Origin: Methyloversatilis discipulorum
GTDB lineage: Bacteria; Pseudomonadota; Gammaproteobacteria; Burkholderiales; Rhodocyclaceae
Reading direction: 5' to 3'
NCBI RefSeq assembly: GCF_000527135.1
Contig: NZ_AZUP01000001.1
Span: 682,001 to 746,000, forward strand
DNA: 64,000 nucleotides
Part shown: one piece after another, positions 46,914 to 57,781 of the stretch
Layout of the letters: every line of letters starts with the position of its first letter
Position numbering within the stretch: the stretch's first letter is position 1
Notes under the pieces: model-generated
Database searches by the model: none
Seen by the model: the letters and a program-made list of their open reading frames with translations, nothing else
What the model was told of the DNA's origin: nothing
Made by a program: the position numbers and the translations under genes

Positions 46914-47816
46914 ATGAGTACATTGACGCACCTGCAACGGCTGGAAGCCGAGAGCATCCACATCATGCGCGAAGTGGTGGCCGAGGCCGAAAACCCGGTC
47001 ATGCTCTATTCGGTCGGCAAGGACAGCGCCGTCATGCTGCACCTCGCCGCCAAGGCCTTCTATCCGTCGGTCCCGCCCTTTCCGCTGCTGCACGTCGACA
47101 CCACCTGGAAGTTCAAGGCGATGTACGAGTTCCGCGACGCGATGGCGCGCAAGCTCGGCATGGACCTGCTGGTGCACATCAATCCGGACGCCAAGGCACG
47201 CAACATCAATCCGTTCGACCACGGTTCGGCGCTGCACACCGACATGTGGAAGACCGAAGGCCTGAAGCAGGCGCTGGACAAGTACAAGTTCGACGCCGCT
47301 TTCGGTGGCGCCCGCCGCGACGAGGAAAAGTCGCGCGCCAAGGAGCGCATCTTCTCCTTCCGCACCGCGCAGCACCGGTGGGACCCGAAGAGCCAGCGGC
47401 CGGAACTGTGGAAGCTGTACAACGCGCGCAAGCATCCGGGCGAATCGATCCGCGTGTTCCCGATCTCGAACTGGACCGAGCTCGACATCTGGCAATACAT
47501 CCACCTGGAGAACATCCCCATCGTGCCGCTGTACTTCGCGGCACCGCGACCGGTGGTCGAGCGCGACGGCACGCTCATCATGGTGGACGACGAGCGCATG
47601 CCGCTGCGCCCGGGCGAAACGCCGCAGATGAAGAGCGTTCGCTTCCGCACGCTGGGCTGCTACCCGCTGACCGGCGCGGTCGAATCGACCGCCGCCACGC
47701 TGACCGACATCATTCAGGAAATGCTGCTGACCACGACGTCGGAGCGCCAGGGCCGCGTGATCGACCACGATTCCGCCGGTTCGATGGAAAAGAAGAAGCA
47801 GGAAGGGTATTTCTGA
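46914..47816 (+). CDS. cysD: Sulfate adenylyltransferase subunit 2
   Basis: 300 residues from ATG 46914 (M-S-T-L-T-H-L). The PP-loop ATPase motif is [10 protein letters not shown] (about 28-37), and the [11 protein letters not shown] motif near residue 130 is also typical. With CysN it forms APS from sulfate and ATP for assimilation. Its stop overlaps the cysN start (TGATG). A TAAAAT -10-like box lies at 46832-46837 but the -35 is unclear. Confidence 0.95.
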
Positions 47817-49546
47817 TGGCACACGTTTCCGACCTCATCGCGCAGGACATCGAGGCCTATCTGCGCCAGCACGAGCACAAGAGCCTGCTGCGCTTCATCA
47901 CCTGCGGCAGCGTCGACGACGGCAAGAGCACGCTGATCGGCCGCCTGCTGTACGAATCGAAAATGCTGTTCGAGGACCAGCTGGCCGCGCTCGAAGCCGA
48001 CTCTAAGAAGGTGGGCACCCAGGGCGGCGACCTCGACTTCGCGCTGCTGGTCGACGGCCTGGCCGCAGAGCGCGAGCAGGGCATCACGATCGACGTCGCC
48101 TACCGCTTCTTCTCGACCGACCGGCGCAAGTTCATCGTCGCCGACACGCCGGGCCACGAGCAGTACACACGCAACATGGTCACCGGCGCCTCGACCGCTG
48201 ACCTCGCCATCATCCTGGTCGACGCGCGCCACGGCGTGCAGACGCAGACCCGCCGCCACAGCTTCCTGGTGTCGCTGATCGGCATCAAGCGCGTCGTCGT
48301 CGCCATCAACAAGATGGATCTGGTCGGCTACTCGAAGGACGTTTACGAGCGCATCGAGAAGGACTACCGCGAGTTCGCAGCGCAGATCGGTCTCTCCGAC
48401 ATCCTGTGCATCCCGATGTCGGCGCTGAAGGGCGACAACATCATCGAGAAGAGCGCTGCCACGCCGTGGTATGCCGGTCCGGCGCTGATGGACCACCTGG
48501 AAACCGTGCAGATCGAGGATGACCTGCAGGCGCGGCCGTTCCGCCTGCCGGTGCAGTGGGTGAACCGCCCCAATCTCGACTTCCGCGGCTTCTCCGGCCA
48601 GATCGCCTCCGGCACCGTGCGCCCGGGCGACCGCGTGCGCGTGCAGCCGTCCGGCCGCGACACCACGGTCGAGCGCATCGTGCTGTCGACGCAGGACATG
48701 AAAGAAGCGGTGGCTGGCCAGTCGGTCACCGTCACCTTCGCCGACGAGATCGACTGTTCGCGCGGCGACGTGATCGTCGCCGCCGACACGCCGGCGCTGA
48801 TCGGTGACAGCTTCGACGCGACGCTGGTCTGGATGAGCGACGAGGCGATGGCCACCGGCCGCAGCTATCTGATGAAGTGCGCGACGCGCACGGTCGGGGC
48901 AACGGTCAATGCGGTCGAGCACCGGGTGAACGTCAACACGCTGGAGCGCTCGCCGGCGACGGCGCTCGGTCTGAACGAGATCGGCCGCGTGTCGCTGCTG
49001 ACCGACCGTCTGCTCGCTTTCGACGCCTACGAATCGGTGCGCGACACCGGCAGCTTCATCCTGATCGACCGGCTCACCAACAACACGGTCGGCGCCGGTC
49101 TGCTGCACGCCGCCCGCAGCCGTCCGCGCGACCTGAGCTGGACCCGTCTGGAAGCCGGCCGAGCCGCGCGCGCCGCACTGAAGCAGCAGTCACCGCTGCT
49201 GCTGTGGGCCGGCGAGGGCATCGCCGCCGACAAGCTGGAACAGAAGCTGATGTCGCTCGGCCGCCACACCATCACGCTGCCAGCTGCCACTGCAGATCTG
49301 CCGCGCATCGCCGGCATCCTGCTCGACGCCGGTCTGGTGGTGGTGATCGACGCTGACTCGGCGCAGCCGGACAGCCTGGTCGCCGCACTGCCGGCTGGCG
49401 AGCACGTCGAACTGAAGATCGACGCCGCTGCCGCGCAGGCCGCGCTGGACGCCAGCGGCACCCGCTTGGCACTGGCGGCGGGGGCGGCCGAAGAGATGGT
49501 CGAGCAGATCGTCGAAACCCTGCGCCGCGCCGGACGTCTGAGCTGA
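47816..49546 (+). CDS. cysN: Sulfate adenylyltransferase subunit 1 with a degenerate APS-kinase-like tail
   Basis: 576 residues from ATG 47816. The GTPase domain has G1 G-S-V-D-D-G-K-S-T (31-39), D-T-P-G-H-E (from about 109) and N-K-M-D (from about 165), followed by EF-Tu-like beta-barrel domains. Plain CysN ends near 430-475. Here a further 115 residues (about 460-576) resemble CysC: L-E-Q-K-L-x-x-L-G-R-H-T and L-L-D-A-G-L-V-V-V align with the kinase, but the P-loop GxxGxGKS is replaced by W-A-G-E-G-I-A-A. So it is a CysNC fusion with a dead kinase domain, or a lineage-specific extension. No separate cysC is in the window. Confidence 0.92.
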   Translation: MAHVSDLIAQDIEAYLRQHEHKSLLRFITCGSVDDGKSTLIGRLLYESKMLFEDQLAALEADSKKVGTQGGDLDFALLVDGLAAEREQGITIDVAYRFFSTDRRKFIVADTPGHEQYTRNMVTGASTADLAIILVDARHGVQTQTRRHSFLVSLIGIKRVVVAINKMDLVGYSKDVYERIEKDYREFAAQIGLSDILCIPMSALKGDNIIEKSAATPWYAGPALMDHLETVQIEDDLQARPFRLPVQWVNRPNLDFRGFSGQIASGTVRPGDRVRVQPSGRDTTVERIVLSTQDMKEAVAGQSVTVTFADEIDCSRGDVIVAADTPALIGDSFDATLVWMSDEAMATGRSYLMKCATRTVGATVNAVEHRVNVNTLERSPATALGLNEIGRVSLLTDRLLAFDAYESVRDTGSFILIDRLTNNTVGAGLLHAARSRPRDLSWTRLEAGRAARAALKQQSPLLLWAGEGIAADKLEQKLMSLGRHTITLPAATADLPRIAGILLDAGLVVVIDADSAQPDSLVAALPAGEHVELKIDAAAAQAALDASGTRLALAAGAAEEMVEQIVETLRRAGRLS

Positions 49547-49606: not shown

Positions 49607-50257
49607 ATGAGCGCCCAGCCTTCTGCAGACGACGATGACGCGGTCCGCGCCGCGTCGATCGAGAAGTACCGCAAGCGCGCCGCCGGCTACGACGCCACCT
49701 GCGGGCCGACCTGGCCGATCCGCGAACGCGCGGTCGCGATGCTCGGTCTGCAGCCCGGTCAGTCGGTACTCGACGTCGGCTGCGGCACCGGCCTCAGCCT
49801 GCCGCTGCTGCGAGCAGCGGTCGGTGACGCCGGGCGGGTCTATGGCTTCGACCAGAGCCCCGAAATGCTGGCGCAGGCGCGCCAGCGCGTGAGCGAAGCC
49901 GGCTGGGACAACGTCGATCTGTTCGAAACCGCAGCCCAGGGCCTGCGCCTGCCGCATCCGGTGGACGCGCTGCTGTTCCACTACACCCACGACATCCTGC
50001 GTTCGCGCAGCGCGGTCGACAGCCTGCTGGCCTGCGCACGACCGGGTGCCGTGGTGGCGATCGCCGGCATCAAGTATTTCCCGGGCTGGCTGGCGCCGCT
50101 CAATCTCTGGGTCTATCTGAAGAACCACGGCTACAACGGCGCGCCGGGCGACCTGCGCACGCCGTGGGACCGCATCGCGCCGCATCTGGTCGACTGGTCG
50201 ATCACGCCCACCCAGTACGGCATGGGCTATCTGGCCCGCGGCCGCCTGCCGGAATGA
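49607..50257 (+). CDS. Class I SAM-dependent methyltransferase
   Basis: The 216-residue protein has a Methyltransf_11/25-type fold with the motif V-L-D-V-G-C-G-T-G-L-S (about 46-56) and an acidic motif 2 (Y-G-F-D-Q-S-P). The substrate is not evident. Its C-terminal third contains a Trp/Tyr-rich segment that may bind a lipid or quinone-like compound. It overlaps the next gene by ATGA, so it acts with a membrane alkaline-phosphatase-superfamily protein. Confidence 0.85.
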   Translation: MSAQPSADDDDAVRAASIEKYRKRAAGYDATCGPTWPIRERAVAMLGLQPGQSVLDVGCGTGLSLPLLRAAVGDAGRVYGFDQSPEMLAQARQRVSEAGWDNVDLFETAAQGLRLPHPVDALLFHYTHDILRSRSAVDSLLACARPGAVVAIAGIKYFPGWLAPLNLWVYLKNHGYNGAPGDLRTPWDRIAPHLVDWSITPTQYGMGYLARGRLPE

Positions 50258-51987
50258 CCGACCGACCCGCGTCGGGCCCGAAGCAGGCCATCGCCGCGCT
50301 GGCTGCGCTGCTGCTCGGCAACGCGCTGCTCAGCGCCAACAATCTGTGGCCCACGCCCTTCATCGTGCCGGATCATCGGCTGTCGCCCGAATTCGTCGGG
50401 CTGTGGCTGGCGCTGATGGTGGTGGTTGCCCGCTATGGCCGCCTGCCGGCCCGCGCACTCACGGTCTTTACCGCGCTGTTCCTGCTGTTCGCGATCGGCC
50501 GCTACGCCGACGTGACCGTGCCCGGTCTGTTCGGCCGGCCGGTCAATCTGTTCTGGGACGGCCAGCAGGTGCCGCGCTTCCTCTGGGTGACCGCGCAGGG
50601 CCTGCCCTGGTGGGTGAGCGTCGGTGCGCTGGTTGGGACAGCGCTGCTCGGCTGGGCGCTGTGGCGTGGCGCGCGCGCGCTGGTCGGGCAGATCGCGCAC
50701 CGCGCCGTTCCGTACGCGCTGCGTCACCGCTGGTCGCGCGTCGCGACCGTACTGGCGACGCTGCTGGTGGCGGCCAATCTGGCCGGCGTCGAGGCAACCT
50801 GGCCGGTCGTGTCGCGGCCGATCACGCCGACCTACTGGCGGCAGGCCACTTTGCTTTCCACGCTGATGTCGCCGGAGGCGGTGGCGCGCGCGCTGCCGCA
50901 GATGCCGGCGCTGGACGACGCGCTGGCGTTGCCGCCCGGCCGCGCGCTGAGCGCGCTGCGCGGCCGCGACGTCTATCTGATGCCGCTCGAATCCTACGGC
51001 GCGGTGGTCTATGACAATGCCGAGGCGGCGCGTCAGCTGCAGCCAGCGCGCGACCGTCTGGCGCAGGACCTCGCCGCCGGTGGCTGGCAGGTGGTGTCGG
51101 CCTTCATGCGCTCGCCCACCTTCGGCGGCGCGTCCGACCTCGCCCAGCTGGGCATGCTGTCCGGTCTCGATCTGAGCGACCCGCGTCGGCACGACCTGCT
51201 GGTCACTACCGAGCGACCGACGCTGATCACGCTGTTCCGCCGCAACGGCTACCGCACTTACGGCTTCTATCCGGCGCTGTTCTGGGAGTGGCCGGAGCGT
51301 GTGTTCTACGGCTACGACGTGTTCATCGACGGCCGCGACCTGCGCTACCCGGGACCCGACATGGGCTACTGGAAGATTCCTGATCAGTATTCGGCCGAAC
51401 GCTTCGAACAGCTGCATCCGCGCACGCCTGGCGAGCCCCCGCGCTTCGTGTTCTTCCCGACCATCACCAGCCATCTGCCGTTCTCGCCGGTGCCGCCTTT
51501 CCAGCCCGACATCGACCGCCTGCTCGGCGACACGCCCTTCGATCCGGCCGATGCGGCGCGCGCGCTGGCGACGAGGCCGGACTGGCTGAACATGTTCCCG
51601 GACTACATCGGCACCATCGAATACACCTTGCGCTGGCTGGGCGACCACCTGCGACGGGCGCCGGCGCGCGACACGCTGTACGTGCTGGCCGGCGACCACC
51701 AGCCGGTGGCCGGTGTCAGCGGCGAAGGCGCGTCATGGGACGTGCCGGTGCACATCGTGTCGCGCGACCCGGAACTGCTGGCGCGCTTCGTCGCTCAGGG
51801 CTTCCAGCCGGGGCTGGCGCCGCCGCGCACGCCCGTCGGAGGACTGCACGACCTGACCGCCGTGATGCTGCGCGCCTTTGGCGATCTGCCGACCGCGCAA
51901 CTCGGCGCTGCAACGACGCACGGAAGGGTGACGGCTCAGGCGACGTCGAGCGCGGCGGGCACGACTGGCGCGGCCTTGTCGCGGTAG
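50254..51987 (+). CDS. Membrane-anchored alkaline-phosphatase-superfamily (sulfatase/LtaS-like) protein
   Basis: 577 residues from ATG 50254, which overlaps the methyltransferase stop. About four to five membrane helices occupy residues 10-190. The soluble part starts near 240 with Y-L-M-P-L-E-S-Y-G-A, comparable to the metal-binding start of LtaS/sulfatase-type hydrolases, and has G-G-A-S-D-L-A-Q-L-G in the nucleophile region and A-G-D-H-Q-P-V, a DH metal-ligand pair, near 485. It may transfer or hydrolyse phosphate or phosphoglycerol groups at the envelope. The nucleophile is not certain. Its end overlaps the opposing ATP-grasp gene by 52 bp. Confidence 0.78.
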   Translation: MTDRPASGPKQAIAALAALLLGNALLSANNLWPTPFIVPDHRLSPEFVGLWLALMVVVARYGRLPARALTVFTALFLLFAIGRYADVTVPGLFGRPVNLFWDGQQVPRFLWVTAQGLPWWVSVGALVGTALLGWALWRGARALVGQIAHRAVPYALRHRWSRVATVLATLLVAANLAGVEATWPVVSRPITPTYWRQATLLSTLMSPEAVARALPQMPALDDALALPPGRALSALRGRDVYLMPLESYGAVVYDNAEAARQLQPARDRLAQDLAAGGWQVVSAFMRSPTFGGASDLAQLGMLSGLDLSDPRRHDLLVTTERPTLITLFRRNGYRTYGFYPALFWEWPERVFYGYDVFIDGRDLRYPGPDMGYWKIPDQYSAERFEQLHPRTPGEPPRFVFFPTITSHLPFSPVPPFQPDIDRLLGDTPFDPADAARALATRPDWLNMFPDYIGTIEYTLRWLGDHLRRAPARDTLYVLAGDHQPVAGVSGEGASWDVPVHIVSRDPELLARFVAQGFQPGLAPPRTPVGGLHDLTAVMLRAFGDLPTAQLGAATTHGRVTAQATSSAAGTTGAALSR

Positions 51988-53276
51988 GGGGCGCGCCAGC
52001 CAAGCAGGTCGCTGGCCGTCTCTGCGCGAGCACGCAGCCCGGCGGCATCGGCCGCATCCAGATGAACGATGCCGTAGCGGTGACTGCCGGTCCATTTCAG
52101 ATCGCGCCGCAAGGCCCGGCCGCGCCGGCCGAAAGCGAACAGCAGCGCATCCGGAAAGGCCTCGGCGAAGCGCGCGCACAGCGCCGCGTCCGGCATCGCC
52201 GGCACCTCGTCCTCATCGAAGGCGCGATAGACCAGGCTGGCCGCGACGCGGGCTCGTGGTGCCTCGCGACGCAGCAGACGCGGGTCCTCGCCGTGCGCCA
52301 GCGCCAGCGACCAGGCGTGCGCATCGATGCCGTGCACGCGCAGGTAGAGGTCGGAAAACTGCGACGCCAGACGCGGATTGCACTCGATCACGGTGAGCCG
52401 GTCACGCGCGTCGTCGTAGAAGAATTCGAGATTGAAGAAGCCGTGGTCGTAGCCGATGGCGCCGAGGAAGCGGCGCGCCACGTCGAGCGCGCGCGCCTGT
52501 ACCGACGCCGGCAGCCGGCTGGGCAGTTCCCAGCGCATGAAGGCCTGGGTACCCGGATGCATGATGGCGTCGACCACGCCCAGTGCATGAACCTGCCCGT
52601 CGAACACCCAGCCGTCGAGATTGAACTGCGGCGTCGCCGGATCGACCGGCTCCTCCAGCAGCATGCGATGCGCACTGCCGGCCTCGGGCAGCCGTGCGCG
52701 ACAGACGCGGTCGAACGGTTCGATCAGGCGGCGGATGATCCGGCGCTCGGCAAGATCAAAACGGGTGTGCGCCTGCAGCGCATCGCGGCTGTCGACCTCG
52801 CGCGCCAGCACCGAAAAGGCCGCCTTGATCGGCTTTGCGTAGACCGGGTAGGCAAAGCCGGCCGGCAGCCGTGCCGGCACGTCGTCGCCGCACACCATGT
52901 CCAACGCGGCGAAGCGCAGGCAGGCCTCTGGCGCGACCGCCTCCAGCACGCGCCGCGCGTGCAGCTTGTGCTGTGCGGCCAGAATGGCTTCGGGCGGCGC
53001 ACAGGGCAGCCCGAGCCGCTCGGCCACCAGCGCCGCCGCCAGCGCGCCGAAAGCTTCGTGATGCGAGATCACCGCCGACCAGTCGCGCCGCCGGCCGCGC
53101 GCCGCGGTGCGCTCGGCGAAGCGTTCGAGATCGAAGCCGATCAGCCGCAGATTGGATGGAAACGAAAACAGATCGAAGCCGGCGTGGTCGAAGGCGTGGT
53201 CCGCGCCCGAACGGGCGAAGCCGATGCGATCCCAGTCGTAGGCGAACAGCAGGCCGGTACGCGGTCTGGCGGGCAC
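51936..53276 (-). CDS. ATP-grasp domain protein of unknown substrate
   Basis: The 446-residue protein shows ATP-grasp signs: V-Y-A-K-P-I-K-A-A-F in the lid (about 144-153), and the Mg/ATP end motif F-F-N-L-E-F-F with V-I-E-C-N-P-R-L-A-S-Q-F (about 293-318), as in carboxylate-amine or peptide ligases. I do not recognise a specific family. It is divergent from egtD across a 94-bp gap, which suggests shared control and a possible role in hercynine/selenoneine metabolism, such as ligating an amino acid. That is inference. Confidence 0.75.
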   Translation of the reverse strand: MPARPRTGLLFAYDWDRIGFARSGADHAFDHAGFDLFSFPSNLRLIGFDLERFAERTAARGRRRDWSAVISHHEAFGALAAALVAERLGLPCAPPEAILAAQHKLHARRVLEAVAPEACLRFAALDMVCGDDVPARLPAGFAYPVYAKPIKAAFSVLAREVDSRDALQAHTRFDLAERRIIRRLIEPFDRVCRARLPEAGSAHRMLLEEPVDPATPQFNLDGWVFDGQVHALGVVDAIMHPGTQAFMRWELPSRLPASVQARALDVARRFLGAIGYDHGFFNLEFFYDDARDRLTVIECNPRLASQFSDLYLRVHGIDAHAWSLALAHGEDPRLLRREAPRARVAASLVYRAFDEDEVPAMPDAALCARFAEAFPDALLFAFGRRGRALRRDLKWTGSHRYGIVHLDAADAAGLRARAETASDLLGWRAPYRDKAAPVVPAALDVA

Positions 53277-53370: not shown

Positions 53371-54336
53371 ATGGTGCGCACGCCGCGTTTCATCCAGCTG
53401 CAAGCGGTCGACGACGCGCGGCAGATGCCGGCGCTGTGGGCCGGTCTGCAGGCGCCGGTGGCGCGGGTGTCGCCAAAGTATTTCTACGACGCGCTGGGTT
53501 CGCGGCTGTTCGAAGCGATCACCGAACTGGACGAGTACTACCCGACGCGCACCGAGGCCGCCATTTTTGACGCCCACGCCGCCGACATGGCGGCGCGCTT
53601 GTGCGCGTACGTGGGGCCCGCCCATGACCTGATCGACCTCGGCGCAGGCAACTGCGCCAAGGCGGCGAAGCTGTTTCCGCAATTCGCGCCACGTCGCTAC
53701 GTCGCGGTCGACATATCGGTCGACTTCCTCAAGCACTCGATCGAATGCCTGCAGCGCGCCCATCCCGACATGGACATGGTGGGTGTCGGCCTCGACTTTT
53801 CCGCCGCCCTCGCGCTGCCGGCGACGCTGTACGAAGGTCCGGCGCTGGTCTTCTTTCCTGGCTCAAGCATCGGCAACTTCGCGCCGGACGAAGCGCTGCG
53901 TCTGCTGCGCGAGACGCGTGCGGCTGCCCGCGGCGGCGCGCTGCTGATCGGCGTCGATCTGGTCAAGGACAAGGCGGTGCTGGACGCCGCTTACGACGAC
54001 GCGCTGGGCGTCACCGCCGCCTTCAACCTCAATCTGCTGCGTCACCTGAACCGCATCGCCGGCACCGATTTCAGCATCGCCGACTGGCGTCACGTCGCCT
54101 TCTTCGACCCTGCAAATTCGCGCATTGAAATGCACCTGGAGGCGCGCCAGTCGCTCACCGTGCGCTGGCCGGGCGGCGAGCGCCGCTTTGCCGTTGGCGA
54201 GCGCATCCTGACCGAGCACTCATGGAAATGGACGCGCGAGCGCTTCGACGCCTTGCTGCGCGAAGCCGGTTTCGATGACATCACCTGCTGGACCGACACG
54301 CGCGACGGCTTCGCCGTCTTCCTCGCGTGCGCCTGA
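53371..54336 (+). CDS. egtD: L-histidine N-alpha-methyltransferase (EgtD)
   Basis: 321 residues, the normal EgtD length, from ATG 53371 with GAGGGG 8 nt upstream. EgtD trimethylates histidine to hercynine with SAM. Visible features are S-P-K-Y-F-Y-D-A-L-G-S-R-L-F-E (about 34-48), L-I-D-L-G-A-G-N-C-A-K (SAM motif near 88) and F-F-P-G-S-S-I-G-N-F (about 166). Hercynine is the acceptor for selenosugar coupling by SenA, encoded next on the opposite strand, so the pathway core is present. Confidence 0.94.
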   Translation: MVRTPRFIQLQAVDDARQMPALWAGLQAPVARVSPKYFYDALGSRLFEAITELDEYYPTRTEAAIFDAHAADMAARLCAYVGPAHDLIDLGAGNCAKAAKLFPQFAPRRYVAVDISVDFLKHSIECLQRAHPDMDMVGVGLDFSAALALPATLYEGPALVFFPGSSIGNFAPDEALRLLRETRAAARGGALLIGVDLVKDKAVLDAAYDDALGVTAAFNLNLLRHLNRIAGTDFSIADWRHVAFFDPANSRIEMHLEARQSLTVRWPGGERRFAVGERILTEHSWKWTRERFDALLREAGFDDITCWTDTRDGFAVFLACA

Positions 54337-54347
54337 TGAGAGGCCGT

Positions 54348-55559
54348 TCAGTCGATCGCGCAGCTACGGAAGCCGGCCGGCACGTCGTTGCGCTCGGGCT
54401 GGAAGAAATTGCGGTAGCGCAGGTGGCGCATGCGCGGCTGCGTCATGAAGGAGGCGCCGCGCAGCACGCGGCGGTCGCCGAACCACGGCGCCGAGTAGTC
54501 GCGGTAGGGGTGGGGCGTGAAGCCGGGGTAGGGCAGGAAGTCGCTGGCCGTCCATTCCCATACGGCGCCCCAGCAGAAGCGGTCCGCCGCGCTCAGTGCC
54601 GCACGCTCCCACTCTGCTTCGGTCGGCAGCCGGCGACCGGCCCAGCGGCACCAGGCTTCAGCTTCGTAGGCGCTCAGATGGCAGGCCGCGGTGTCCGCGT
54701 CCAGCGTCTGCCAGTGGCCATACACCCGGCGTTCCCAGCCGCTGCCGGCGCGTCTCAGATAGCGCGGCTGCGTGCGCCCCCGCGCCGTGCGCCAGCGCCA
54801 GCCTTCGCTGCTCCACCAGCGCGGGTCGTCGTAGCCGCCGGCGTCCACGAACGGAAGATAGTCGCGCCAGTTCACCACCGCACTGTCGATGTCCAGCGCC
54901 GGCACGCTCACGTCGTGCGCGCCCAGTTCGTTGTCGAAGGCGAAGCCGTCTCCGCTGCTGCCCAGCAGATGGCGGGCCGCCGGCAGCGACAGCGTGTCGC
55001 GTGCGCCGATGGCTGCCGGCTGCCAGCGTGCGTCATCGACCGCGATGTCGAGCTGCTGCGCCATGTAGAGCGCGGCTTCGTGGTGCATGTCCTCGTGCAG
55101 CAGCGACAGGCGGAAGAAATAGAGCGCGTCGTCGCTGTCGTCCGGTACGCCGGCCAGCAGCAAAAGCGTGCCCTCCAGTTGTCGCGCGAGGTCGTCCAGC
55201 GTCGCGTCGGCGTCCGGCAGCGGCAGGGTGGGGCGGCTGGCGTGGGGCACGTGGCTGGAGTCGTACAGCGCGTCGGCGTTCGCCCGCAGCGGCGGCGTGC
55301 GCGCGACATCGGGGTCGGCACGCACGCCCTTCAGATAAAGCGGATTGCGCAGCGTCCACCATTCCTGGAACCATCCGATATGGCCCAGCTCCCACAGCGG
55401 CGGATTCAGCGTTTCGTGGAACGGAATGCGCAGTGTCGGGCAGGCGCGCCGATAGTCGGCGAAACGGGCCAGCGTGTCGTCGCGGCTCGCGCGCAGCGCT
55501 GCCGCGAGAGCCCCGCGGTCGCCGCGGCGGGCGCCCGCCGATTGATCTGAGGCCTCCAT
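54348..55559 (-). CDS. senA: Selenoneine synthase SenA (EgtB-like non-heme iron enzyme)
   Basis: About 403 residues if ATG 55559 is used; further in-frame ATGs upstream (55574 and beyond) would run into senB. The N-terminal DinB-like domain has iron ligands H60 (E-L-G-H-I-G-W), H155 and H159 (L-L-H-E-D-M-H-H-E), with the HxxxH spacing of EgtB. The C-terminal FGE-sulfatase domain ends R-N-D-V-P-A-G-F-R-S-C-A. SenA joins a selenosugar to hercynine to give selenoneine. Assignment as SenA rather than EgtB rests on the adjacent senB and selD. It converges on egtD (11 bp apart) and diverges from senB. Confidence 0.88.
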   Translation of the reverse strand: MEASDQSAGARRGDRGALAAALRASRDDTLARFADYRRACPTLRIPFHETLNPPLWELGHIGWFQEWWTLRNPLYLKGVRADPDVARTPPLRANADALYDSSHVPHASRPTLPLPDADATLDDLARQLEGTLLLLAGVPDDSDDALYFFRLSLLHEDMHHEAALYMAQQLDIAVDDARWQPAAIGARDTLSLPAARHLLGSSGDGFAFDNELGAHDVSVPALDIDSAVVNWRDYLPFVDAGGYDDPRWWSSEGWRWRTARGRTQPRYLRRAGSGWERRVYGHWQTLDADTAACHLSAYEAEAWCRWAGRRLPTEAEWERAALSAADRFCWGAVWEWTASDFLPYPGFTPHPYRDYSAPWFGDRRVLRGASFMTQPRMRHLRYRNFFQPERNDVPAGFRSCAID

Positions 55560-55572
55560 CGAACACACGTCC

Positions 55573-56562
55573 ATGTCCCGTCCATCCATCGTCATCGTTA
55601 CGCCAGCGCTGGCCGACGCCAACAACGGCAACTGGCGCACCGCCCGTCGCTGGGCCGCCATGCTGCGCCCGCGCTACGAGGTGCGGCTGACGTCCGGCTG
55701 GCAGGACGGCGACGAGGCGCTGATGATCGCGCTGCACGCCCGTCGTTCGGCCGCCGCCGTGGCCGCCTGGCGGCAGGCCCATCCGTCGCGTCCGCTGCTG
55801 CTCGCGCTGACCGGTACCGACCTCTACCGTGACATCGACTTCGACGCGTCGGCACGGCACTCGCTGATGATGGCCGATCAGCTGATCACGCTGAACGCGC
55901 TGGGTGCTCGTGCGCTGCCACCGACGCTGCGCGCACGCTGCAGCATGGTCCTGCAATCAACGCCCGCACGCCGTCGCGGCGTGCCGCCGACGCGTCACCT
56001 GCGCGTGCTGATGATAGGTCACCTGCGCACCGAGAAGGCGCCTGATACCCTGTTCGACGCGGTGCGCAAGTTGCGCGCGCGCGCCGACATCCGCGTCGAC
56101 CACATCGGCGGTGCGCTGGATCCCGTGCTCGGCGAACAGGCGCGCGCGCTGATGCAGGAGTGCCCGCATTACCGCTGGCTGGGCGGCCTGGCGCACGGCG
56201 AGACGCTGCGCCGGCTGGCACGCGCCAGCGTGCTGGTGCATCCGAGTCGCATGGAAGGCGGCGCGCACACGGTGATCGAGGCGGTGCGCTGCGGCGTGCC
56301 GGTGATCGCGTCGCGCATCGATGGCAACGTCGGCCTGCTCGGCGAGGGCTACGACGGCTATTTCGAGGTGGACGCCGCTGCGGCGCTGGCCGCCTGCATC
56401 GCCCGCGCACGTGACGACGCCGGCTGGCTGGCCCGGCTCGACCGCCAGTGCGCCGCGCGTGCGCCACTGTTCGCGCCGGAACGAGAAAGTGCGGCGCTGG
56501 CTGCGCTGGTCGATGGATGTCTGGCATCCTTCGGCCCGCGCCGCGACGCCGCGACCGCATGA
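55573..56562 (+). CDS. senB: Selenosugar synthase SenB (glycosyltransferase)
   Basis: The 329-residue GT-B type glycosyltransferase starts I-V-I-V-T-P-A-L-A-D-A-N-N-G-N-W-R-T-A, a segment I associate with SenB proteins, and has the retaining-type donor motif M-E-G-G-A-H-T-V-I-E-A (about 229-239). SenB uses UDP-GlcNAc-type donor and selenophosphate to make the 1-seleno-sugar. Its stop overlaps the selD start by ATGA, coupling selenophosphate supply to its use. ATG 55573 lies within 14 nt of the oppositely transcribed senA start. Confidence 0.9.
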   Translation: MSRPSIVIVTPALADANNGNWRTARRWAAMLRPRYEVRLTSGWQDGDEALMIALHARRSAAAVAAWRQAHPSRPLLLALTGTDLYRDIDFDASARHSLMMADQLITLNALGARALPPTLRARCSMVLQSTPARRRGVPPTRHLRVLMIGHLRTEKAPDTLFDAVRKLRARADIRVDHIGGALDPVLGEQARALMQECPHYRWLGGLAHGETLRRLARASVLVHPSRMEGGAHTVIEAVRCGVPVIASRIDGNVGLLGEGYDGYFEVDAAAALAACIARARDDAGWLARLDRQCAARAPLFAPERESAALAALVDGCLASFGPRRDAATA

Positions 56563-57656
56563 CAACCCCGCAAGAACTGGATCGACAGATGAACGAAGCG
56601 CAGGCAGCGAACAGCGAACCCCGACTGACTTCCCTCTCGCACGGCGGCGGCTGTGGCTGCAAGATTGCGCCCGGCGTGCTGTCGGACATCCTGAAGCACA
56701 CGGCGGCGATGCCGGTGCCGCCGGAACTGATGGTGGGCATCGAAACGTCGGACGACGCGGCGGTCTATCGCCTCAACGACGAACAGGCGCTGATCGCGAC
56801 CACCGATTTCTTCATGCCCATCGTCGACGATCCGTTCGACTTCGGCCGCATCGCCGCGACCAATGCGATCAGCGACGTCTATGCGATGGGCGGCCGGCCC
56901 ATCCTCGCGCTGGCGCTGGTCGGCATGCCGATCAACGTGCTGTCGACGACCACCATAGGCCGCATCCTGGAAGGTGGTGCCTCGGTCTGCCGCGATGCCG
57001 GCATCGTCGTCGCGGGCGGCCACACCATCGATTCGGTAGAGGCGATCTACGGACTGGTGGCACTCGGCATCGCCCACCCGGAGCGCATCCGCCGCAATGC
57101 CGACGCACAGCCGGGCGATGTGCTGGTGCTGGGCAAGCCGCTCGGCGTCGGCGTCATGTCGGCCGCGCTGAAGAAGGGCGCGCTCGACGACGCCGGCTAT
57201 GCACGGATGATTGCCAGCACGACCAAGCTCAATACGCCGGGGCCGGATCTGGCGGCGCTGCCCGGCGTGCACGCGCTGACCGACGTGACCGGCTTTGGCC
57301 TCGCCGGCCACGCGCTCGAACTGTCGCGCGGCTCGGGCTGCGACGTGATCATCGACTGGTCGGCAGTGCCGCTGCATGCCGGCACGCGCGAACTCGCCGC
57401 GCAGGGCTTCGTCACCGGTGCGTCGAGCCGCAACTGGGCAGGCTACGGCGAACGCGTCGTGCTGGCCGACGGCTTCGCGCCGGAAGACCGCGCGCTGCTT
57501 ACCGACCCGCAGACCAGCGGCGGCCTGCTCGTGTCCTGCATGCCGGATGCGCTCGACGCAGTGCTCGCCACCTTCCGTCGTCACGGCTTCGATGCCGCCG
57601 CCGTGGTCGGTCGCGTCGGTGATCGCAGTGCAGCGCCGGTCGTGCGCGCCGGCTGA
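56559..57656 (+). CDS. senC: Selenophosphate synthetase (SelD/SenC)
   Basis: 365 residues from ATG 56559. The catalytic loop is G-G-G-C-G-C-K (C32, C34, K35), equivalent to C17/C19/K20 of E. coli SelD, so it should be active and uses Cys rather than Sec. The T-S-D-D-A-A-V-Y and G-G-H-T-I-D segments complete the ATP-binding core. Translational overlap with senB shows it serves selenoneine synthesis (the role called SenC); it could also serve selenoprotein or tRNA pathways, but no selA or selB is seen here. Confidence 0.94.
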   Translation: MTTPQELDRQMNEAQAANSEPRLTSLSHGGGCGCKIAPGVLSDILKHTAAMPVPPELMVGIETSDDAAVYRLNDEQALIATTDFFMPIVDDPFDFGRIAATNAISDVYAMGGRPILALALVGMPINVLSTTTIGRILEGGASVCRDAGIVVAGGHTIDSVEAIYGLVALGIAHPERIRRNADAQPGDVLVLGKPLGVGVMSAALKKGALDDAGYARMIASTTKLNTPGPDLAALPGVHALTDVTGFGLAGHALELSRGSGCDVIIDWSAVPLHAGTRELAAQGFVTGASSRNWAGYGERVVLADGFAPEDRALLTDPQTSGGLLVSCMPDALDAVLATFRRHGFDAAAVVGRVGDRSAAPVVRAG

Positions 57657-57696: not shown

Positions 57697-57781
57697 GCCC
57701 GGATGGTGAAACTGGTAGACACAAGGGACTTAAAATCCCTCGACGCAAGTCGTGCGGGTTCGATCCCCGCTCCGGGCACCA
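57697..57781 (+). tRNA. tRNA-Leu (anticodon UAA)
   Basis: The 85-nt class II tRNA has acceptor GCCCGGA (57697-57703) paired with TCCGGGC (57771-57777) and an anticodon loop CTTAAAA with anticodon TAA. It also has the long variable arm typical of Leu tRNAs, a T loop TTCGATC, and CCA encoded at 57779-57781. It follows senC by 40 bp. Confidence 0.95.

Follow-up and report, generated by a model that had tools for sequence, protein, structure and literature searches.

A probable selenoneine locus of Methyloversatilis and the ATP-grasp gene family that accompanies SenB in its order

What is a bacterium equipped to make when the gene for a histidine methyltransferase stands beside those for an EgtB-like iron enzyme, a glycosyltransferase and a selenophosphate synthase? 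And does the uncharacterised gene that adjoins this group take part? Both questions are raised by the window, that is, the whole stretch of 64,000 nucleotides of Methyloversatilis discipulorum DNA that was analysed. The first has a rather firm answer: judged by its gene families, the window very probably carries the chromosomal selenoneine (sen) locus of Methyloversatilis. As the initial annotation had stated, egtD, senA, senB and selD lie together at 53371-57656, and all four exceed the curated NCBIfam cut-offs of their families, with scores far above chance. The predicted products are an L-histidine N-alpha-trimethyltransferase that yields hercynine (egtD, 53371..54336, plus strand; TIGR03438, 358 bits against a cut-off of 290.9, and PF10017), a selenoneine synthase of the EgtB-like non-haem iron type (senA, 54348..55559, minus strand), a Se-glycosyltransferase or selenosugar synthase (senB, 55573..56562, plus strand) and a selenide water dikinase, or selenophosphate synthase (selD/senC, 56559..57656, plus strand). 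The profile search proposed with the initial annotation gives 521 bits for SenA (NF041186, cut-off 420), 428 for SenB (TIGR04348, cut-off 300) and 422 for SelD (TIGR00476, cut-off 125).

The genes are tightly packed. The stops of the convergent egtD and senA are 11 bases apart; the likely ATG of senA is at 55559, within an open frame that extends to 55661, and 13 bases separate it from the ATG of the divergent senB. As described earlier, selD starts within the end of senB, the two genes sharing ATGA at 56559-56562, and selD is probably cotranscribed with senB. A tRNA-Leu gene (anticodon taa) follows selD at 57697; an Rfam scan found two tRNAs and nothing else, and a promoter and terminator scan gave no signal beyond chance. 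On the other side, separated from egtD by 94 bases and transcribed away from it, is the gene of an uncharacterised ATP-grasp ligase (51936..53276, minus strand). Its 3′ end overlaps that of a gene for a sulfatase-fold, LTA-synthase-like protein (50254..51987, plus strand; PF00884, 30.1 bits against a cut-off of 25), and before this lies a class I SAM methyltransferase gene (49607..50257, plus strand; PF13649 among its Pfam matches). Upstream of the methyltransferase gene, at 47246-49543, is a gene for CysN, the large subunit of sulfate adenylyltransferase, with about 190 extra N-terminal residues.

How would these parts work together? The steps of EgtD, SelD, SenB and SenA are established for the SenABC system of Variovorax paradoxus, and in the Methyloversatilis host they are inferred from family membership and conserved residues. 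EgtD would convert histidine to hercynine by trimethylation, SelD would supply selenophosphate, and SenB would pass the selenium to a UDP-sugar. SenA would then join the selenosugar to hercynine with the help of O2 and iron, and the resulting selenoxide would break down to selenoneine. The source of hercynine is present, residues 22-319 of the 321 in EgtD being alignable with solved EgtD. SelD, adjoining senB, keeps the GCGCK stretch when aligned with solved SelD 3u0o. SenB falls in the selenosugar synthase family and is 87% identical to the SenB of a M. discipulorum metagenome-assembled genome. Aligned with the solved Se-glycosyltransferase 8k5u, it keeps the catalytic lysine K158, and the EGGAHV motif reads EGGAHT; the roles of this lysine and motif are described in the relevant part of PMC10891094. 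The histidine-to-selenoneine route proposed earlier is thus well supported as a prediction by families, conserved residues and the SenA tree.

The initial annotation had also called senA rearranged, or inverted, and had singled out egtD as lying inside the locus. Gene order was compared for the best 80 of 279 SenB matches, all at named loci, in stretches that reach at most 10 kb to either side. Among these best 80, senA is directly divergent from senB in 62, Variovorax soli being one of them; in 2 both genes have the same strand, and in 16 the examined stretch shows no senA. An egtD gene adjoins senA and converges with it in 30 of the same 80 loci, and is found anywhere in the examined stretch in 45. 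All four genes are adjacent in the window's order in 23 of the 80, which is the commonest single category, so that a rearrangement of senA is ruled out. The core locus is an ordinary member of a known pathway. Four loci (L074, L080, L110 and L116) have, more than 1 kb after senB, a SelD relative of 34-36% identity in place of the usual SelD, which may be a fusion or another kind of selenophosphate synthase.

The second question, that of the adjoining gene, leads onto less familiar ground. The protein has 446 residues and matches the ATP-grasp fold across its whole length; Pfam gives no match for it at E 0.001, and it stays below the cut-offs of the NCBIfam models. It was aligned with 38 of 49 distinct homologues, 11 having been removed by hand (near-copies, partial sequences, and L153 and L161 with an internal stop). 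It is the one neighbour gene tested, picked because it adjoins the locus.

In this order the ATP-grasp family goes with SenB, and the association is strong. In a sample of 300 genomes from the order, 34 carry a member of the family at E 1e-10 or better, and 96 have SenB at E 1e-40 or better, 87 of these over the cut-off. SenB is present in 33 of the 34 carriers versus 63 of the 266 non-carriers (Fisher p 1.5e-17, in a test that ignores the kinship of these related genomes), and at the level of genera, a count that corrects for kinship only partly, each of the 19 genera with the ATP-grasp gene belongs to the 51, out of 135, that have SenB (p 7e-10). SenA over cut-off follows the same pattern, with 25 of 34 carriers versus 40 of 266 others (p 4e-12); the counts for SenA, SenB, EgtB and the ATP-grasp family come from the same 300 genomes and represent one sample, not four. 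A single carrier, G059, is without SenB; it has SenA, near a contig end, and SenB or SenA is found in 34 of 34 carriers. None of the 56 genomes that have EgtB without SenB contains the ATP-grasp gene. Since the gene is missing from 63 of the 96 SenB genomes, selenoneine synthesis does not require it.

Is this a link of function? Or is the ATP-grasp gene a chance neighbour whose task is unrelated, tied to SenB by the shared ancestry of the genomes? The gene occupies the same place in the window and in four named Methyloversatilis loci (L038-L041), and the sulfatase-fold gene is likewise in place in four other loci of the genus. Beyond the window's genome, 34 stretches around the gene, some on short contigs, were obtained from the order's remaining 33 carriers. 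In 7 of the 34, from seven genomes, a sen or egtD gene is found at a distance of 6 to 3521 bases: the ATP-grasp gene adjoins senA-egtD in G102 and G179 and senB in G271, is divergent from egtD in G264 and G210, stands near senA in G175 and lies beyond a transporter in G003. With the window's genome included, the distance to a sen or egtD gene is at most about 4 kb in 8 of 34 carriers, and the ATP-grasp gene is within the examined stretch of 18 of the best 80 of 279 SenB loci.

The other 27 of the 34 stretches, some of them on short contigs, show no sen or egt gene, as would be expected of a gene with other business. The same reading is favoured by a methyltransferase relative in 11 of the 34 stretches and a YHS-domain protein in 5, and by the homologues from outside the order. 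The latter occur in 19 of 369 genomes of the class, mostly at 26-34% identity (4 at 39% or more), and 0 of 9 stretches around them contain a sen gene, including two at 51-52% identity on short contigs; the absence of sen genes near distant homologues indicates that the wider family has other roles. On plasmids, six records hold homologues below 60% identity, and the surroundings of two, with incomplete gene tables, show no sen gene. What weighs against an unrelated neighbour is that SenB is present in 25 of the 26 carriers that show no sen or egt gene around the ATP-grasp gene, which makes physical linkage or hitch-hiking unlikely as the cause, and that the pairing with SenB or SenA holds in every carrier and across 19 genera. 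Moreover, EgtB serves as an internal control: it is comparably frequent, with 86 of 300 genomes over cut-off, and is unlinked, being present in 13 of 34 carriers versus 73 of 266 others (p 0.13). Taken together, the unrelated neighbour looks doubtful, while it appears reasonably likely that the ATP-grasp gene serves selenium metabolism.

Two further observations concern the surroundings of this gene. At several loci (L105:987-1607; L055, L152, L154 and others) the YHS-domain gene follows it, and the L105 protein matches NF041384, "YHS domain-containing (seleno)protein". At L055, L056 and L062 an EgtB gene is adjacent, which prompted the idea of a role in ergothioneine synthesis; this was rejected, as the association with EgtB is absent.

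What could a further enzyme do at a selenium locus? We infer that the ATP-grasp protein would activate a carboxylate with ATP and couple it to an amine, its partner most likely being selenoneine, hercynine or a selenosugar-derived amine. As a tentative proposal, it may be an undescribed further selenium enzyme that joins selenoneine, via its carboxylate, or a selenosugar-derived amine to an amino acid. If this is true, many SenB bacteria would make a selenium pseudo-peptide, a natural product not yet known. Of the new findings, the most useful is the company that the family keeps with SenB in this order; the function is offered as a hypothesis, and the gene becomes a specific candidate for a further enzyme of a small selenium metabolome.

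Another question is whether selenoneine is the right product to assign. By model scores, by the tree and by its best solved match, the SenA of the window belongs to the selenoneine-synthase family rather than to EgtB. Its best solved relatives are the selenoneine synthases 8ryz and 8k5i (437 bits), versus 163 bits for solved OvsA, a selenoxide synthase, and 149 for solved EgtB 4x8b; the EgtB model TIGR03440 gives 248-255 bits, under its cut-off of 360. Two histidine stretches align with those of solved SenA, and we take them to be the iron holders of the SenA/EgtB enzyme class. The tree, built by a quick method with SH-aLRT support only, contains 107 proteins (97 SenA-like, 9 EgtB and 1 OvoA, labelled by best tblastn query and not by family models); the selection excluded matches that aligned over no more than about 250 residues, were shorter than 300 amino acids or had internal stops. 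The nine EgtB rows form one group on a long branch, with support 100 and without the window protein. The latter stands with other Methyloversatilis in a set of 41 rows, all SenA-like and Variovorax soli included, with support 99; the rooting is for display purposes, and the tree does not establish all 97 SenA-like rows as a single clade. The initial annotation had held that clustering with ergothioneine EgtB would speak against it, and the protein groups with SenA, apart from EgtB.

The ovoselenol pathway uses SenB-type selenosugars, and the locus might be asked to make ovoselenol, or another selenohistidine, in place of selenoneine. A 2026 review names, in the passage concerned, two novel selenium metabolites in all, selenoneine and ovoselenol, the latter being the known second selenometabolite (PMC13188914). 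Such a product is very improbable here: SenA is far nearer to the selenoneine synthases than to OvsA, and the adjacent egtD makes hercynine. Even less credible is that the EgtB-like enzyme makes ergothioneine among incidental neighbours, for although SenA and EgtB are homologous and the window protein reaches 255 bits with the EgtB model, the EgtB cut-off is unreached while the SenA model is well exceeded, the EgtB group excludes the protein, and senB and selD adjoin its gene.

With selenoneine retained as the predicted product, the rest of the genome (4.31 Mb, a single contig) gives the locus its context. EgtD has one match in the whole genome, the egtD of the window. No EgtB over the cut-off of 360 occurs in the genome, the best two scores being 248 bits (SenA) and 165 bits (OvoA), and the genome therefore leaves selenoneine as the sole recognised end product of hercynine. 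SelD has one copy over cut-off; SelU/MnmH is present (345 bits against a cut-off of 220), so that this SelD must also feed SelU for 2-selenouridine and tRNA selenation. SelA has no match in the genome. The initial annotation, whose identification of the locus stands and whose claims of novelty do not, had overlooked three things: that EgtB is absent, that SelD also serves SelU, and that an ATP-grasp gene adjoins the locus. SenB without EgtB over cut-off is common, being found in 66 of the 96 SenB genomes among the 300 of the order. The window's own family seldom has the pathway: of eight other genomes sampled from it, one has SenA over cut-off and two have SenB. A host that appears to keep selenoneine without EgtB would be a clean organism in which to probe selenoneine function. 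At about 1.124 Mb of the same genome lies a full OvoA gene followed by that of a PatB-family C-S lyase (L187:5979-9355), and the host probably also makes ovothiol; the OvoA of Methyloversatilis thermotolerans is described as a studied enzyme in the part of PMC10903977 that bears on it.

The surroundings of sen loci elsewhere hold points of their own. ABC transporter genes lie near 46 of the best 80 of 279 SenB loci, upstream of egtD or senA and mostly on the minus strand; at L105:4185-7615 they encode a protein that passes the TIGR04553 model for putative selenate-binding proteins (401 bits, cut-off 250), two PhnE-like permeases and a PhnC-like ATPase. Since a passage of the 2026 review gives a specific high-affinity selenium transporter in prokaryotes as not known (PMC13188914), this sen-locus ABC transporter is a candidate. 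For the window locus a selenate-type uptake system was rejected, TIGR04553 giving only 49 bits against the cut-off of 250 across the whole genome. As for plasmids, senB was found in three records, and the surroundings of two were examined. The 25-kb pMPOP01 of Methylorubrum populi (L191) has an annotated divergent senA/senB pair with an IS6-like transposase adjoining senA, from which the sen genes may be mobile. On pBPS33-1 of Hydrogenophaga sp. BPS33 (L190), an EgtB-family gene is divergent from senB and is surrounded by genes for resistance to arsenic, copper, chromate and mercury; the annotation of the region displayed has no selD.

How does the locus compare with known systems? The literature searched contains no paper pairing selenoneine with an ATP-grasp enzyme; the discovery papers of selenoneine and ovoselenol lay outside its scope and may mention the gene. 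The known ATP-grasp L-amino acid ligases BL00235 and BacD/YwfE share only 11-16% identity with the window protein. Ergothioneine (egt) loci of Burkholderiales likewise combine EgtD with an EgtB-like iron enzyme; unlike them, the window's genome is without EgtB over cut-off anywhere. The sen cluster of V. paradoxus is presented as three genes or proteins in the relevant parts of later accounts, and as selD with at least two more genes in PMC9814287. The window shares with the senABC of strain DSM 30034 the SenA, SenB and SelD/SenC families, all over their cut-offs, and differs from it in having egtD inside, in a comparison drawn from those later accounts and not from the original gene-order figure. 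Finally, the ATP-grasp gene of the window sits where many relatives have the putative selenate-type ABC transporter.
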